From Comamonadaceae bacterium (lineage in GTDB: Bacteria > Pseudomonadota > Gammaproteobacteria > Burkholderiales > Burkholderiaceae_C): a stretch of 64,000 bases of DNA. Position numbers and translations under genes: made by a program. The notes beneath the pieces were generated by a model, which worked only from the letters and a program-made list of their open reading frames with translations, ran no database searches and had not been told where the DNA came from. Positions 46,543-51,738 of the stretch are shown piece after piece. The number at the start of each line of letters is the position of its first letter. Positions within the stretch are counted from its first letter, which is position 1. Location of the stretch: the NCBI GenBank assembly GCA_947456305.1, contig CANGPN010000006.1, positions 1 to 64,000 on the forward strand. The letters run 5' to 3'.

Positions 46543-48014
46543 TGTTTGTCCTCGACCACGACAGAGCAGGCGGTTACTGGGGAGCGGTGTATGTGTTCAC
46601 CGCCATCAAAGGATTGCAAGTCGTTATTGACGGGCCGGTCGGTTGTGAAAACCTGCCGGTCACCTCCGTGTTGCATTACACCGATGCTTTGCCGCCGCAC
46701 GAATTGCCCATCGTGGTCACCGGTTTGGCGGAAGAACAACTCGGACGCGAAGGCACCGAAGGCGCGATGAAGCGTGCCCACAACGTACTCGACCCCGATT
46801 TGCCTGCGGTGGTGGTCACCGGTTCTATCGCTGAAATGATTGGCGGCGGTGTCACACCTGAAGGCACCAACCTGATGCGCTTTTTGCCGCGCACGATTGA
46901 CGAAGACCAATGGCAATGCGCCAACCGCGCCATGTATTGGTTGTGGACCGAATACGGCATGAAAAAAGTGCCTAAGCGGGTTCGCAAAGAAGGCGAGAAG
47001 CCGCGCGTCAACATCATCGGGCCTTGCTACGGCACGTTCAACAGCCCCAGCGACCTGGCAGAAATCCGCCGTCTGGTGCAAGGCATAGGCGCAGACATCA
47101 ACATGGTGTTTCCGTTGGGTAGCCATTTGGCCGAGGTGTCTCGACTGGTGGAAGCCGATGTGAATATTTGCATGTACCGCGAATTCGGCCGCATGTTGTG
47201 CGAAGCCCTTGACCGTCCTTATTTGCAAGCACCTATCGGTTTGCACAGCACCACCAAATTTTTGCGCAAGCTTGGCGAGTTGTTAGGGCTGGATCCCGAG
47301 CCTTTCATTCAGCGCGAGCGTCACACCACCATCAAACCGGTGTGGGATTTGTGGCGCTCAGTCACCCAAGATTTTTTTGCCACCGCTTCGTTTGCAGTGG
47401 TGGCCACAGACACCTATGCGCGCGGCATACGAAAGTTTTTAGAAACCGAAATGGGTATGCCGTGCAAGTTCGCTGTCTCGCGTATGCCCGGGCAGAAAAC
47501 CGATAACGCTGCGGTGCGCGAACTCGTACACAAACAAATGCCACTCATTTTGTTCGGCAGCTACAACGAGCGCATGTATTTGGCAGAGGCCGGTAGCAGC
47601 GGACCGATGAAAGCGACTTTCATTCCCGCGTCTTTCCCCGGGGCCATCATCCGTCGCCACACCGGCACACCGTTCATGGGCTATAGCGGTGCCACATATT
47701 TAATTCAAGAAGTCTGCAACTCTTTGTTTGACGCTTTGTTCCACATCCTGCCGCTAGGCACTGACATGGACAAGGTGGACGCAACACTGGCGCGCGGCAT
47801 CAGCGGCGCACAAGAAAACACACCGTGGGATGACGCAGCACAAACCCGTTTGCACACCTTGGTATCCGGTCAGCCGGTGCTGGTGCAAATTTCAGCAGCC
47901 AAGCGTTTGCGTGATTTGGCAGAAGGTAAAGCACGCGCTGCAGGTGTTGAACTGGTGACTGAAGACCATGTGAAAAAAGCCGGTGCCGAACTTGGTCTTG
48001 GAGAGACAGTGTGA
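46542..48014 (+). CDS. bchZ: Chlorophyllide reductase subunit Z
   Basis: A 490-residue NifK-like subunit. Starts [19 protein letters not shown], with the conserved [21 protein letters not shown] near the N-terminus and a proto-BchB-like C-terminal tail. With BchY it holds the substrate and cluster. Its stop TGA overlaps a GTG by 4 nt (GTGA) that opens the 41-codon ORF before pufB. Full length. Confidence 0.95.
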
Positions 48015-48136
48015 GTGCCAAACAAAACAACTTTTTGCATGCGTTGGCATGTGAATTGACCCTGATGTCGCGGCAGATGCTGCGGCTACCCAGGTTGCGC
48101 GGGTTGGGCGCAGCGTTGGCTTCACAGCCATTTTGA
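48011..48136 (+). CDS. 41-codon ORF in the pufQ position, unknown
   Basis: A 41-residue protein, starting [17 protein letters not shown] and ending [10 protein letters not shown]. The GTG start overlaps the bchZ stop by 4 nt (GTGA), and the stop TGA overlaps the ribosome site of pufB (GAAGAAGGAG), so the ORF couples translation across the bchZ-pufB gap. It lies where pufQ sits in Rhodobacter, but lacks PufQ's membrane segment and is half as long. The sequence is basic and amphipathic with one Cys. It is either a coupling leader or a small unrecognised protein. Confidence 0.5.
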
Positions 48137-48150
48137 AGAAGGAGCATCGC

Positions 48151-48297
48151 ATGTCAAATCATCGGACATCCATTTCCGGCTTGACTGACGAAGAAGCTAA
48201 GGAGTTCCACCATTTCTGGATTCAAGGAACCGTAGGTTTCACAGCTGTGGCTGTGTTGGCCCACATCCTGGTCTGGGCTTGGCGGCCTTGGTTCTGA
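48151..48297 (+). CDS. pufB: Light-harvesting complex 1 beta subunit
   Basis: A 48-residue antenna polypeptide. It starts [20 protein letters not shown], has a single membrane helix, and ends [12 protein letters not shown] with the bacteriochlorophyll-ligating His at residue 38 and the C-terminal Trp cluster. This gene is too short to be listed by standard ORF cut-offs. Strong ribosome site AAGGAG. In normal operons pufA would follow at once; here another gene comes first. Confidence 0.95.
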
Positions 48298-48328
48298 GTC
48301 AAGTTCTTTAACCGAACGGAGTAAACCC

Positions 48329-48556
48329 ATGGCTAACACCACCTCTTTTGAATCGCAAAAATCATCCGCCTGGGATGAGCAAATTGCGTTTGTTCTGATT
48401 TTTGTTCCCTGTTTTGTTGTCTTGTTTTCGTTTGCTGTTGTCGGTCAACTGATCGGCATGCGCTGGAAATCCTGGCTGCCTGGCGCGGAGAACATGCCAA
48501 ACATCATTTCGGGTGTCAAGGCTACGGTTTATACGTTCATGTCTCACATCATTTAG
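48329..48556 (+). CDS. Single-pass membrane protein between pufB and pufA, PufX-like topology
   Basis: A 75-residue protein with its own ribosome site (AACGGAG). Residues 1-18 are polar, 19-42 a transmembrane helix ([20 protein letters not shown]), followed by [10 protein letters not shown] and a short amphipathic tail ending MSHII. It has no antenna-type histidine in the membrane helix, so it is not a second alpha or beta chain. Topology and size (82 residues in Rhodobacter sphaeroides) match PufX, and from memory the tails align: NI-SGVKAT.....MSHII against NITGALET.....IKHLV. PufX is encoded after pufM in Rhodobacter, so the position is different. A role in shaping the LH1 ring or quinone channel is inferred. 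Fits between pufB and pufA with 31 and 11 nt gaps. Confidence 0.8.
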
Positions 48557-48567
48557 GAGAAAACATC

Positions 48568-48768
48568 ATGTGGAGAATTTGGCGTTTGTACGACCCTTTG
48601 CGGGCCATGGTGGTCCAGGGTATTTTTCTGTTCGGTTTGGCGGCAATGATTCACCTCATTTTGCTCAGCACGAACAAGTTCAACTGGCTGGACGGCGCGA
48701 AAAAGCCTGTAGCAGCATCGGCGCAAAACTCGCCTATGCCTGCAGCTGTTCCTGCCGAAAAGTCCTGA
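48568..48768 (+). CDS. pufA: Light-harvesting complex 1 alpha subunit
   Basis: A 66-residue antenna polypeptide beginning [20 protein letters not shown]; the bacteriochlorophyll ligand is His29 in [19 protein letters not shown]. The C-terminal extension ([20 protein letters not shown]) is Ala/Pro-rich, like that of other betaproteobacterial PufA. Ribosome site TTTAGGAGAAAA. It is separated from pufL by 88 nt that hold strong hairpins. Confidence 0.95.
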
Positions 48769-48774
48769 GCTTTT

Positions 48775-48811
48775 CAGCACCAGCAGGTGCTGTTTGAACG
48801 ACAGCACCTGC
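48775..48811 (+). promoter_or_regulatory. pufA-pufL intercistronic hairpins (mRNA segment boundary)
   Basis: A perfect 11-bp stem GCAGGTGCTGT / ACAGCACCTGC (48783-48793 and 48801-48811) has a 7-nt loop. An upstream CAGCACC (48775-48781) can instead pair with GGTGCTG inside the same arm, so two hairpins compete. No T-run follows. In Rhodobacter, hairpins here stop 3' decay at the end of the pufBA part, so that antenna mRNA outlasts reaction-centre mRNA. Confidence 0.75.
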
Positions 48812-48856
48812 ATTTCAAGCGTTTTGTTTCACCATTTGCGGCAGGAGGGCTAACAC

Positions 48857-49690
48857 ATGGCCATGCTCAGCTTTGAAAAAAAATACCGAGTGCGGGGCGG
48901 GACCCTGGTCGCTGGTGATTTATTTGATTTTTGGTTAGGCCCGTTTTACGTCGGCTTTTTCGGTATCACCACCATCTTTTTTGCCTTTTTAGGCACTGCC
49001 ATGATTTTGTGGGGCGCATCGCAAGGCCCGACCTGGAATCTGTGGCAAATCAGTATTGCGCCACCCAATCTTTCCTACGGCCTGCGCTTTGCGCCGCTGA
49101 TGGAAGGCGGCTTGTGGCAACTCATCACGATTTGTGCACTGGGTGCGTTTGTGTCTTGGATGTTGCGTGAAGTGGAAATCTGCCGCAAGCTCGGCATGGG
49201 CTATCACGTACCTGCCGCATTCAGCATGGCCATATTCGCGTATTTCACACTAGAAGTGATTCGTCCGGTGTTAATGGGCGGCTGGGGACATGCCTTCCCT
49301 TACGGCATTTACAGCCATTTGGACTGGGTGTCCAACGTAGGCTACCAATACCTGCACTTTCACTACAACCCGGCGCACATGTTGGCAGTCAGTTTCTTTT
49401 TCGCCACTGTGTTCGCACTCTCTTTGCACGGCGCTTTGATTTTGTCTGCCACCAACCCGGGTGACGGCCAGGTCGTCAAAAAGCCCGAAGACGAAGACAC
49501 GTTTTTCCGCGACACCATAGGCTATTCCATAGGCACGCTAGGCATTCACCGACTGGGCGTGTTTTTGGCTATGGCTGCAGTGGCTTTCAGCGCCTTGTGC
49601 ATTGTCATCAGTGGTCCGTTCTGGAGCCGTGGTTGGCCCGAATGGTGGGGCTGGTGGCTCAATCTGCCGATCTGGTCTCAGTGGCCTTAA
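48857..49690 (+). CDS. pufL: Reaction centre L subunit
   Basis: A 277-residue, five-helix subunit that binds the special pair and quinone QB. Start [15 protein letters not shown]; conserved stretches [38 protein letters not shown] (QB and Fe ligands) and AMHGSL-like [11 protein letters not shown] are present. Strong ribosome site GGCAGGAGGG. Length is normal. Confidence 0.96.
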
Positions 49691-49711: not shown

Positions 49712-50689
49712 ATGGCTGACTACTACAACCTATTCACCACGGTGCAGGCCCGAGGCCCGGTACACCATGGCTCAGAGCTCGGGCCGGGCAACAGCCCGCG
49801 CTTTGGCCATCCCGCTATTTTCTGGCTGCTGGGCAAAATAGGTAATGCCCAACTCGGTCCTATTTACCTGGGCGGTTTCGGTGTGGCTTCGCTGCTTTGC
49901 GGCATGCTGGCTTTCAACATCATCGGTCTGAACATGCTGGCCTCGGTCAACTGGGATCCGGTGCAACTGGTGCGTCAACTGTTTTGGCTGGCGCTTGAGC
50001 CGCCGTCGCCTGACTACGGTTTGTCTTTACCACCTTTGAACCAGGGCGGTTGGTTTTTAATCACCGGATTGCTGCTGTCCACCTCTGCGTTACTCTGGTG
50101 GGTACGAATGTATCGTCGCGCTATCGCTTTGGGCATGGGCACGCACGTGGCCTGGGCGTTTGCCGCAGCCTTGTGGCTGTTTTTTGTCCTGGGTTTGTTC
50201 CGTCCGATATTGATGGGTTCCTGGGGTGAGGCTGTACCTTACGGCATCTTTCCGCACTTGGACTGGACAGCAGCTTTGTCTATTCGCTACGGCAATTTGT
50301 TCTACAACCCGTTCCACGCTTTATCGATTGTGTTCTTGTACGGCTCAGTGTTGTTGTTTGCCATGCACGGCGCCACCATTCTCGCGGTGACCCGCTACGG
50401 CGGTGAACGTGAAATCGAGCAAATCGTCGACCGCGGCACAGCTTCCGAGCGTGCAGCATTGTTCTGGCGTTGGACCATGGGCTTTAACGCCACCATGGAA
50501 TCGATTCACCGCTGGGCCTGGTGGTTCGCCGTGTTGTGTCCATTGACCGGTGGTATCGGTATCTTGTTGACCGGCACCGTCGTTGATAACTGGTATTTGT
50601 GGGCCATCAAACACGGTGTAGCTCCGCCGTATCCGAATGTGTTTCCTGCCGTGATTGACCCGGCGCTGACCGTGGGAGTCAAACCATGA
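49712..50689 (+). CDS. pufM: Reaction centre M subunit
   Basis: A 325-residue five-helix subunit, beginning [22 protein letters not shown] and iron site residues are in SFQYPNPHM-like stretches [20 protein letters not shown] and [19 protein letters not shown], with the non-haem iron ligand in GAT..GERE. The C-terminus ([17 protein letters not shown]) matches species with a bound PufC. It starts 21 nt after pufL and overlaps pufC by 4 nt (ATGA). Confidence 0.96.
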
Positions 50690-51738
50690 ACGCAATGCGA
50701 TTCACAAACCGCTTGTGGCAATGTGCCGCAGGTCTGGCCGCCATGTTGATGCTCTCCGGTTGCGAACTTCCTATTCCCAATAGCGTGCAACACGGTTACC
50801 GTGGCACTGGCATGGTTCAGGTGTACAACACGCGCCTACTGGCCGCCAAAGTCGATGCCAACACCGTGCCGTTTGCGTTGCCGCAAGCTCCAGCCGAAGG
50901 ACCCAAGGCATCACAAACGTATAAAAACGTCAAAGTGTTGGGCAACCTCAGCACCGCGCAGTTCAACCGTTTGATGGTGTCTATGGCTGCCTGGGTGTCG
51001 CCCAATGACGGTGGTTGTATTTATTGCCATAACCCTGCCAATTTCGCCGACGACGAAAAATACACCAAGGTGGTGGCGCGTCGCATGCTGCAGATGACGC
51101 AGTACATCAACAGTGAGTGGAAGCCTCATGTGGCCGAAACCGGTGTGACTTGCTATACCTGCCACAGGGGACAACCAGTGCCGGCCACTGTTTGGTTCAC
51201 ACAAAACCACCAGCCCCAGGGTTCCAACTTCATGGGTGACAAAGCCGGTCAAAACGAACCTGCTGCCGTCGTCAACCTGTCTTCCTTGCCCAACGATCCG
51301 TTCACTCCATTTTTGTTGCAAGCCAAAGACATTCGAGTGAACGGCCCGACGCCTTTGCCGTCAGGCAACCTTCATTCGATCAAACAAACCGAATGGACTT
51401 ATGCGTTGATGACTCACATGTCTACCTCGCTGGGCGTGAACTGCACTTACTGCCATAACAGCCGTTCTTTCCAAAGCTGGGAAAACAGCCCGCCGCAGCG
51501 TGCCACAGCATGGCACGGCATTCGCATGGCGCGTGACCTCAACGTGAATTACATGGAGCCTTTGGCACCGGTATTCCCGGATCACCGAAAAGGCGAGTTG
51601 GGTGATTCACCCAAGCTCAATTGCAATACCTGCCACCAAGGTGCTTACAAGCCATTGTTTGGCGCGCCCATGGTCAAAGACTTCCCAGAGTTGTCGCCAC
51701 CGCCCCCTGCCAGGCCTGCCCAAGTGGCCAGCCAGTGA
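50686..51738 (+). CDS. pufC: Reaction centre tetraheme cytochrome subunit
   Basis: A 350-residue lipoprotein with a lipobox ([11 protein letters not shown]) at the N-terminus and four CXXCH motifs at residues 111, 156, 253 and 313 (CIYCH, CYTCH, CTYCH, CNTCH). It delivers electrons to the oxidised special pair from periplasmic carriers. Met ligands are likely in the preceding segments. Its presence is normal for betaproteobacterial and many gammaproteobacterial reaction centres but absent from Rhodobacter. Confidence 0.95.

Follow-up and report, generated by a model that had tools for sequence, protein, structure and literature searches.

The 64,000-nucleotide window analysed here (positions 1 to 64,000 of contig CANGPN010000006.1, from a Comamonadaceae bacterium) carries a puf operon in the order bchX-bchY-bchZ-pufB-X-pufA-pufL-pufM-pufC, where X is our working name for a 75-codon gene of the ORF2/ORF74 family that lies between the genes for the two polypeptides of light-harvesting complex 1 (LH1). 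X is an open frame from ATG to TAG at 48329–48556 on the forward strand, as are all features of the window given here, and starts 31 bases past pufB and ends 11 bases ahead of pufA. A ribosome-binding site, ACGGAG, precedes it (48316–48321; anti-Shine-Dalgarno energy -6.1 kcal/mol), which bears out the original prediction of a 75-codon gene with a good ribosome site at this place. Upstream, pufB (48151–48297; NCBIfam NF040862, 80.9 bits; PF00556) encodes an LH1 beta chain of 48 residues that ends in WRPWF, has no C-terminal tail and keeps the bacteriochlorophyll-ligand His (AHILVW). Downstream, the ribosome-binding site of pufA (AGGAG, 48555–48559) overlaps the TAG of X, and pufA itself (48568–48768; NF040861, 64.4 bits) encodes an LH1 alpha chain of 66 residues. 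A strong predicted stem-loop of 11–12 pairs follows at 48783–48811 and may act as a 3' stabiliser for an mRNA spanning pufB, X and pufA; the region 48766–48860 folds at -33.3 kcal/mol (z -3.13), and one of 200 shuffles folded equally well. The operon continues with pufL (48857–49690; TIGR01157), pufM (49712–50689; TIGR01115) and pufC for the cytochrome subunit (50686–51738; NF040706), directly after pufM in the place that pufX holds in Rhodobacter. NCBIfam models back the identities of pufB, pufA, pufL, pufM, pufC and bchZ, and X indeed belongs to the antenna part of a pufC-carrying betaproteobacterial operon; the two genes ahead of bchZ are presumably bchX and bchY, named by position.

The protein encoded by X has a single hydrophobic segment (best 19-residue mean hydropathy 2.9, starting at residue 19) with no His inside, as originally predicted. 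Hydropathy and AlphaFold2 place the transmembrane helix at about residues 17–45 (48377–48463), with Gln40 at the place of the ligand His in a beta-like helix. At that alignment column, none of the 92 X loci and none of 120 listed relatives has a His. The remainder, residues 46–75 (48464–48553), is a tail that begins WKSWLPGAE and is the most conserved part of the protein, with a column entropy over the 92 loci of 1.21 bits, against 1.93 in the helix and 2.82 in the N-terminus. Two AlphaFold2 models, both of low confidence, place the first helix at residues 10–49 (mean predicted local distance difference test score 64.5) and 14–42 (66.9), and both have a second helix in the tail at 59–74. No Pfam or NCBIfam family matched the window protein above its cut-off.

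To judge how widely X occurs, we searched two sets of genomes, one of 199 (own genome included, mostly from the genus) and one of 399 drawn evenly from the order Burkholderiales. In the former, a PufM search was positive in 68 genomes and an X search in 66 (E<=0.001), of which 65 matches are X and one, in genome G148, is a beta chain; in the latter, PufM was found in 48 genomes, 11 of which are shared with the smaller set. We read the DNA around the puf genes in all of these, 105 distinct genomes; in four of them the contig ends before the antenna genes are reached. Among the 101 assessable operons, 93 contain X (37 of 45 in the evenly drawn set alone), placed directly after pufB in 92; in the remaining one, at locus L055, X stands at the contig start before pufA. 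In the 87 loci measured, the gaps are 17–63 bases between pufB and X and 9–22 bases between X and pufA. A scan of GTDB species genomes, which partly covers the same assemblies, gave 208 stretches encoding a relative of X; among the best 80, the order pufB-X-pufA holds in 79, and L099 shows X and pufA only. Titles among these stretches include Rubrivivax gelatinosus DSM 1709 and IM 151, R. benzoatilyticus, Piscinibacter aquaticus and several Limnohabitans, and in DSM 1709 a 74-residue gene between pufB and pufA is 47% identical in product to the X of the window. A protein search returned 896 relatives; among the 120 listed, those that bear a name are mostly called 'light-harvesting complex 1 beta chain' by JGI and 'hypothetical protein' by NCBI.

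Conservation and purifying selection show that X is more than a chance frame. The ratio of nonsynonymous to synonymous substitution rates (dN/dS) is 0.11 in the nearest group, for which nine loci were asked for, and 0.22, 0.17 and 0.16 in three further groups of 3, 6 and 5 loci; the corresponding values are 0.04–0.13 for pufB and 0.03–0.06 for pufA. The gene proved to be maintained in close relatives with the same operon, where its absence or frameshift had been posed as a check. Two unusual members were seen. One protein of 131 residues (P0001, longest contig 621 bases) joins pufB and X in one open frame with no stop between; known from a single metagenome sequence, it may be genuine or an artefact of sequencing. 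At L066:1479-1709, immediately downstream of pufB, a divergent X has the tail RKAANSVIPLMFM in place of YTFMSHI, falls outside the main X clade in the tree and is perhaps of separate origin.

Several lines of evidence indicate that X is very probably a pigment-free paralogue of LH1 beta. Aligned with hhalign, the X profile matches at 99% those LH1 beta chains that bear a C-terminal tail. Tailed beta chains, from Rhodopila (PDB 8z81_B and 7xxf_B) and from five of the Burkholderiales genomes examined here (G148, G285, G298, G372 and G402), align with X without a gap and share with it the helix, a W-R-x-W-L-P-G motif and the tail (GVKAAV...); they differ in that LH1 beta has the ligand His and an EFH motif, whereas X has no ligand His. 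X does not reach the PF00556 cut-off: four of 48 members match at E<=1, the best at E 0.13, and the other 44 not even at that threshold. The best history we can offer, whose order of events is reconstructed, is that an LH1 beta polypeptide was duplicated and that X gave up pigment binding. The ancestral beta would have combined a His-bearing helix with a C-terminal tail; after duplication the His would have stayed with the upstream copy, pufB, which lost the tail, and the tail with the downstream copy, X, which lost the His.

The distribution of the tail among operons is in keeping with such a division. In all 92 X-bearing operons with a visible pufB, the beta chain has no tail. Eight operons have no X, and in five of them, those of the genomes just named, the beta chain has an X-like tail (for example WRPWLPGSGGYTSMIDGVKAAVNSFMPYVFMA) and keeps its His. 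The other three (G187, G307 and G338, all of one genus) combine a short beta with a small X-related open reading frame (ORF) upstream of pufB. Whole-genome searches of the eight found no X elsewhere, save two marginal matches inside long frames of G148. The probability that five tailed betas should all fall among 8 of 101 operons is 7e-7 (4.6e-5 in the evenly drawn set) if lineages are independent, and both figures overstate the case because they are not: three families are involved, and genus g66 has both states. Within that genus, G148, G372 and G402 have a tailed beta and no X, and G193, G237, G276, G460 and G486 have X with a short beta, which suggests that the antenna segment of the operon has been exchanged.

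The original prediction had read X as a relative of Rhodobacter PufX, which opens the LH1 ring and shapes its dimers and with which X shares a size of about 80 residues, a single helix and the lack of a ligand His; the position differs, as pufX lies directly after pufM in place of pufC, whereas X lies between pufB and pufA and pufC follows pufM. Profile comparisons did not bear this kinship out. The X profile scored R. sphaeroides PufX at 0.3 bits, with 130 of 500 shuffles equally good, and reached at most 3.5 bits on five PufX proteins; the PufX profile matched none of 64 X proteins, hhalign gave 3%, and PF11511 had no match in 48 X members at E<=1. The controls worked: PF11511 matches two PufX proteins, a PufX query finds nine distinct PDB sequences, and PufX chains, though in that library, are absent among the 38 PDB matches of the X profile. 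What had drawn attention was a line-up of the two tails, and R. sphaeroides PufX does give a weak match in pairwise alignment (32 of 2,000 shuffles as good for the tail, 5 of 2,000 for the whole protein), at p<=0.05 in 18 of 64 X members for the tail. Four other PufX proteins gave no match at p<=0.05 (best 30 of 500 shuffles), and the residues that match PufX vary within the X family, Asn58 being Asn in 34 of 92. The likeness of the tails is coincidence or at most convergence. We reject X as a PufX homologue, and that pufX itself should have been relocated in the operon, making X a true orthologue, as the pairwise match alone might suggest, is scarcely credible when neither profile nor PF11511 recovers the other family. 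A small ORF does occupy the Rhodobacter pufX place, judged by locus number, in Roseateles depolymerans (ORF77, RD2015_RS05175, between pufM and pufC; PMC10037100).

The small ORFs upstream of pufB occupy the place of pufQ, and link X to a second group of proteins. One-helix proteins of this kind occur at L068:445-675, L154:1107-1331, L187:1211-1465 and L188:1251-1496, and on the minus strand at L174 and L190. The family has 51 relatives, nearly all without a functional name, and like PufQ and X its members have about 75 residues, one helix, a conserved C-terminal tail and a place in the puf operon; they differ in order, the pufQ gene lying upstream of pufB and X after it in the 92 loci that show both. 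Of the 43 PDB matches of the family's profile, 40 are antenna chains, and the profile also finds PufQ. In hhalign comparisons the family scores 97.7% against X and 88.4% against PufQ. The X profile reaches 23 of its 51 members and the tailed-beta profile 18, and in 19 X-bearing genomes the profile of the upstream family found only X and pufB. The Pfam model of PufQ, PF05398, had no match in X or in the genome of the window (across the phylum it is positive in 13 of 398 genomes), nor in four upstream proteins tested; P0165 matches it just under the cut-off. PufQ-type proteins may be beta-derived. In R. sphaeroides, PufQ co-purifies with ferrochelatase and is needed for bacteriochlorophyll levels, according to PMC5725709.

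X appears to be expressed together with the antenna genes. Mean anti-Shine-Dalgarno energies over 87 loci are -8.1 kcal/mol for pufB, -6.8 (standard deviation 2.9) for X and -7.3 for pufA. In Roseateles, ORF74 (locus RS05155, by number between pufB, RS05150, and pufA, RS05160), which we equate with X by locus number and not by sequence, is carried on the major 1-kb transcript and co-transcribed with pufBA, and in a sigma-factor mutant 2.34% of its transcript remained, compared with 0.71% for pufA and 1.09% for pufB (PMC10037100). In Rhodobacter, stem-loops that follow pufBA increase the share of antenna (PMC5725709).

We favour the reading that X is a pigment-free beta duplicate that assists LH1 assembly or pigment supply, a proposition that, taken as a whole, seems to us evenly balanced. 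X would be made together with alpha and beta, insert beside the nascent chains in the orientation of beta, with its conserved tail presumably periplasmic, and help LH1 to assemble or to receive pigment while carrying no bacteriochlorophyll itself. A helper role is proposed because the kin of X outside X-bearing lineages hold the place of pufQ, whose product is required for normal levels of bacteriochlorophyll and antenna, and because the mature Rps. palustris complex contains beta with its end removed (PMC7806223). Several observations weigh against this reading. Fold searches with the two low-confidence models returned nothing usable, and profiles made only from short beta chains give weak matches to X (9 of 64). 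The complementarity also clusters phylogenetically, with tailed betas in three families and upstream ORFs in one genus, and it breaks down beyond Burkholderiales. Five operons belong to other orders in the class: two carry a short, tail-less beta and lack an upstream ORF, two have a tailed beta plus an upstream ORF, and one has a short beta with an upstream ORF. The PufQ profile finds none of 64 X and none of 51 upstream proteins, the beta profile none of nine PufQ, and direct hhalign of X and PufQ gives 38%; the tree places X outside the upstream family. Canonical Rhodobacter PufQ thus has no match to X, and the link between the two runs only through the PufQ-position proteins. Moreover, the C-terminus of PufQ is predicted to be cytoplasmic (PMC5725709), as opposed to the periplasmic tail of beta, and transcription at antenna level with tight coupling to pufA would fit a structural subunit too. 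The broader idea that LH1 beta repeatedly gave rise to pigment-free tailed helpers, X between pufB and pufA in betaproteobacteria and, upstream of pufB in other lineages, the PufQ-position proteins and perhaps PufQ, with X as the betaproteobacterial stand-in for PufQ, is in our view doubtful.

As to the role itself, X most likely contributes to the making of LH1 in one of two ways, as a helper in assembly or pigment supply, which we tentatively rank first, or as a blank structural subunit of the reaction centre (RC)-LH1 complex, which is possible and comes next; a ring opener ranks below both. A blank subunit would be a pigment-free beta occupying or capping a beta place, or standing beside beta in many copies, with its periplasmic tail stabilising the ring; the idea arises because X is made in the antenna segment. 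It fits the beta-type helix and tail, the gene's own ribosome site there, and the stem-loop after pufA together with the co-transcription in Roseateles (PMC10037100), and in tailed-beta lineages every ring beta would carry the tail, at least at first. Against it, X has about 2–7 times the dN/dS of pufB and pufA. We also know of no such chain from purified betaproteobacterial core complexes, and the beta that accompanies the closest solved RC-M (9m8m) is a tailed chain of 67 residues, as would fit an operon without X. That X works like PufX without being its homologue, one copy interrupting the LH1 ring as a quinone gate, we consider unlikely. One helix, no ligand His and a probable N-in/C-out orientation by homology to beta would suit it, and since PufX and protein-W, both ring openers, are not significantly homologous to each other (PMC7806223), a third opener of unrelated origin would fit the pattern; yet X lies at the antenna position instead of after pufM and has no sequence kinship to PufX, and the tailed betas that share its tail would sit all round a ring. 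Of the other extra membrane proteins of RC-LH1, protein-W, the LH1 gamma chains and Gemmatimonas RC-S and RC-U, none is among the 38 PDB matches of the X profile, and protein-W has three helices (PMC7806223) where X has one. Finally, X might tie peripheral LH2/LH3 antenna to LH1, and the genome of the window does have a peripheral antenna pair (G000:C1). This is very improbable, because nine of 23 tested genomes (G011, G136, G193, G199, G260, G328, G358, G422 and G441) have X and no PF00556 antenna genes beyond pufB and pufA, and G199, G260 and G441 are estimated to be 100% complete with 0% contamination.

Two further features of the window lie outside this argument. A 41-codon frame at 48011–48136, between bchZ and pufB, has by eye no hydrophobic helix; it may correspond to 'ORF1', which precedes pufB in R. 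gelatinosus, or may be noise. A tmRNA gene at 1–359, cut by the start of the window, matches RF00023 of Rfam (166.7 bits).

The gene is already on record under other names, and the original premise that pufB and pufA adjoin in every puf operon is wrong, an extra ORF having been noted in both Rubrivivax gelatinosus and Roseateles. ORF2 of R. gelatinosus, upstream of pufA, is given as of unknown function in PMC12817894, which cites a 1994 paper; the comparison made there is with alpha chains only (PufA2, 10.1–14.5% identity), and the conclusion is that ORF2 did not give rise to an alpha chain. That work concerns strain IL144, and the sequence we compared is from DSM 1709. Like X, ORF2 and, by locus number, the ORF74 of Roseateles depolymerans are small ORFs between pufB and pufA, with no essential difference known. 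We found no description of either as a beta paralogue in the open literature searched; the new elements are the identification as such, the finding that X is conserved across the order, its complementarity to tailed beta and its connection to the PufQ-position proteins.

With this, an ORF listed with unknown function since 1994 becomes a testable antenna component, and its recognition as a beta that dropped its pigment but retained the tail suggests that the tail does something that can be separated from light capture. Should the link to PufQ hold, a regulator and an antenna protein would have a common origin, and if X does stand in for PufQ, this would explain how tetrapyrroles are directed to bacteriochlorophyll in bacteria that have no PufQ while the antenna is being built, a question left open in PMC5725709.
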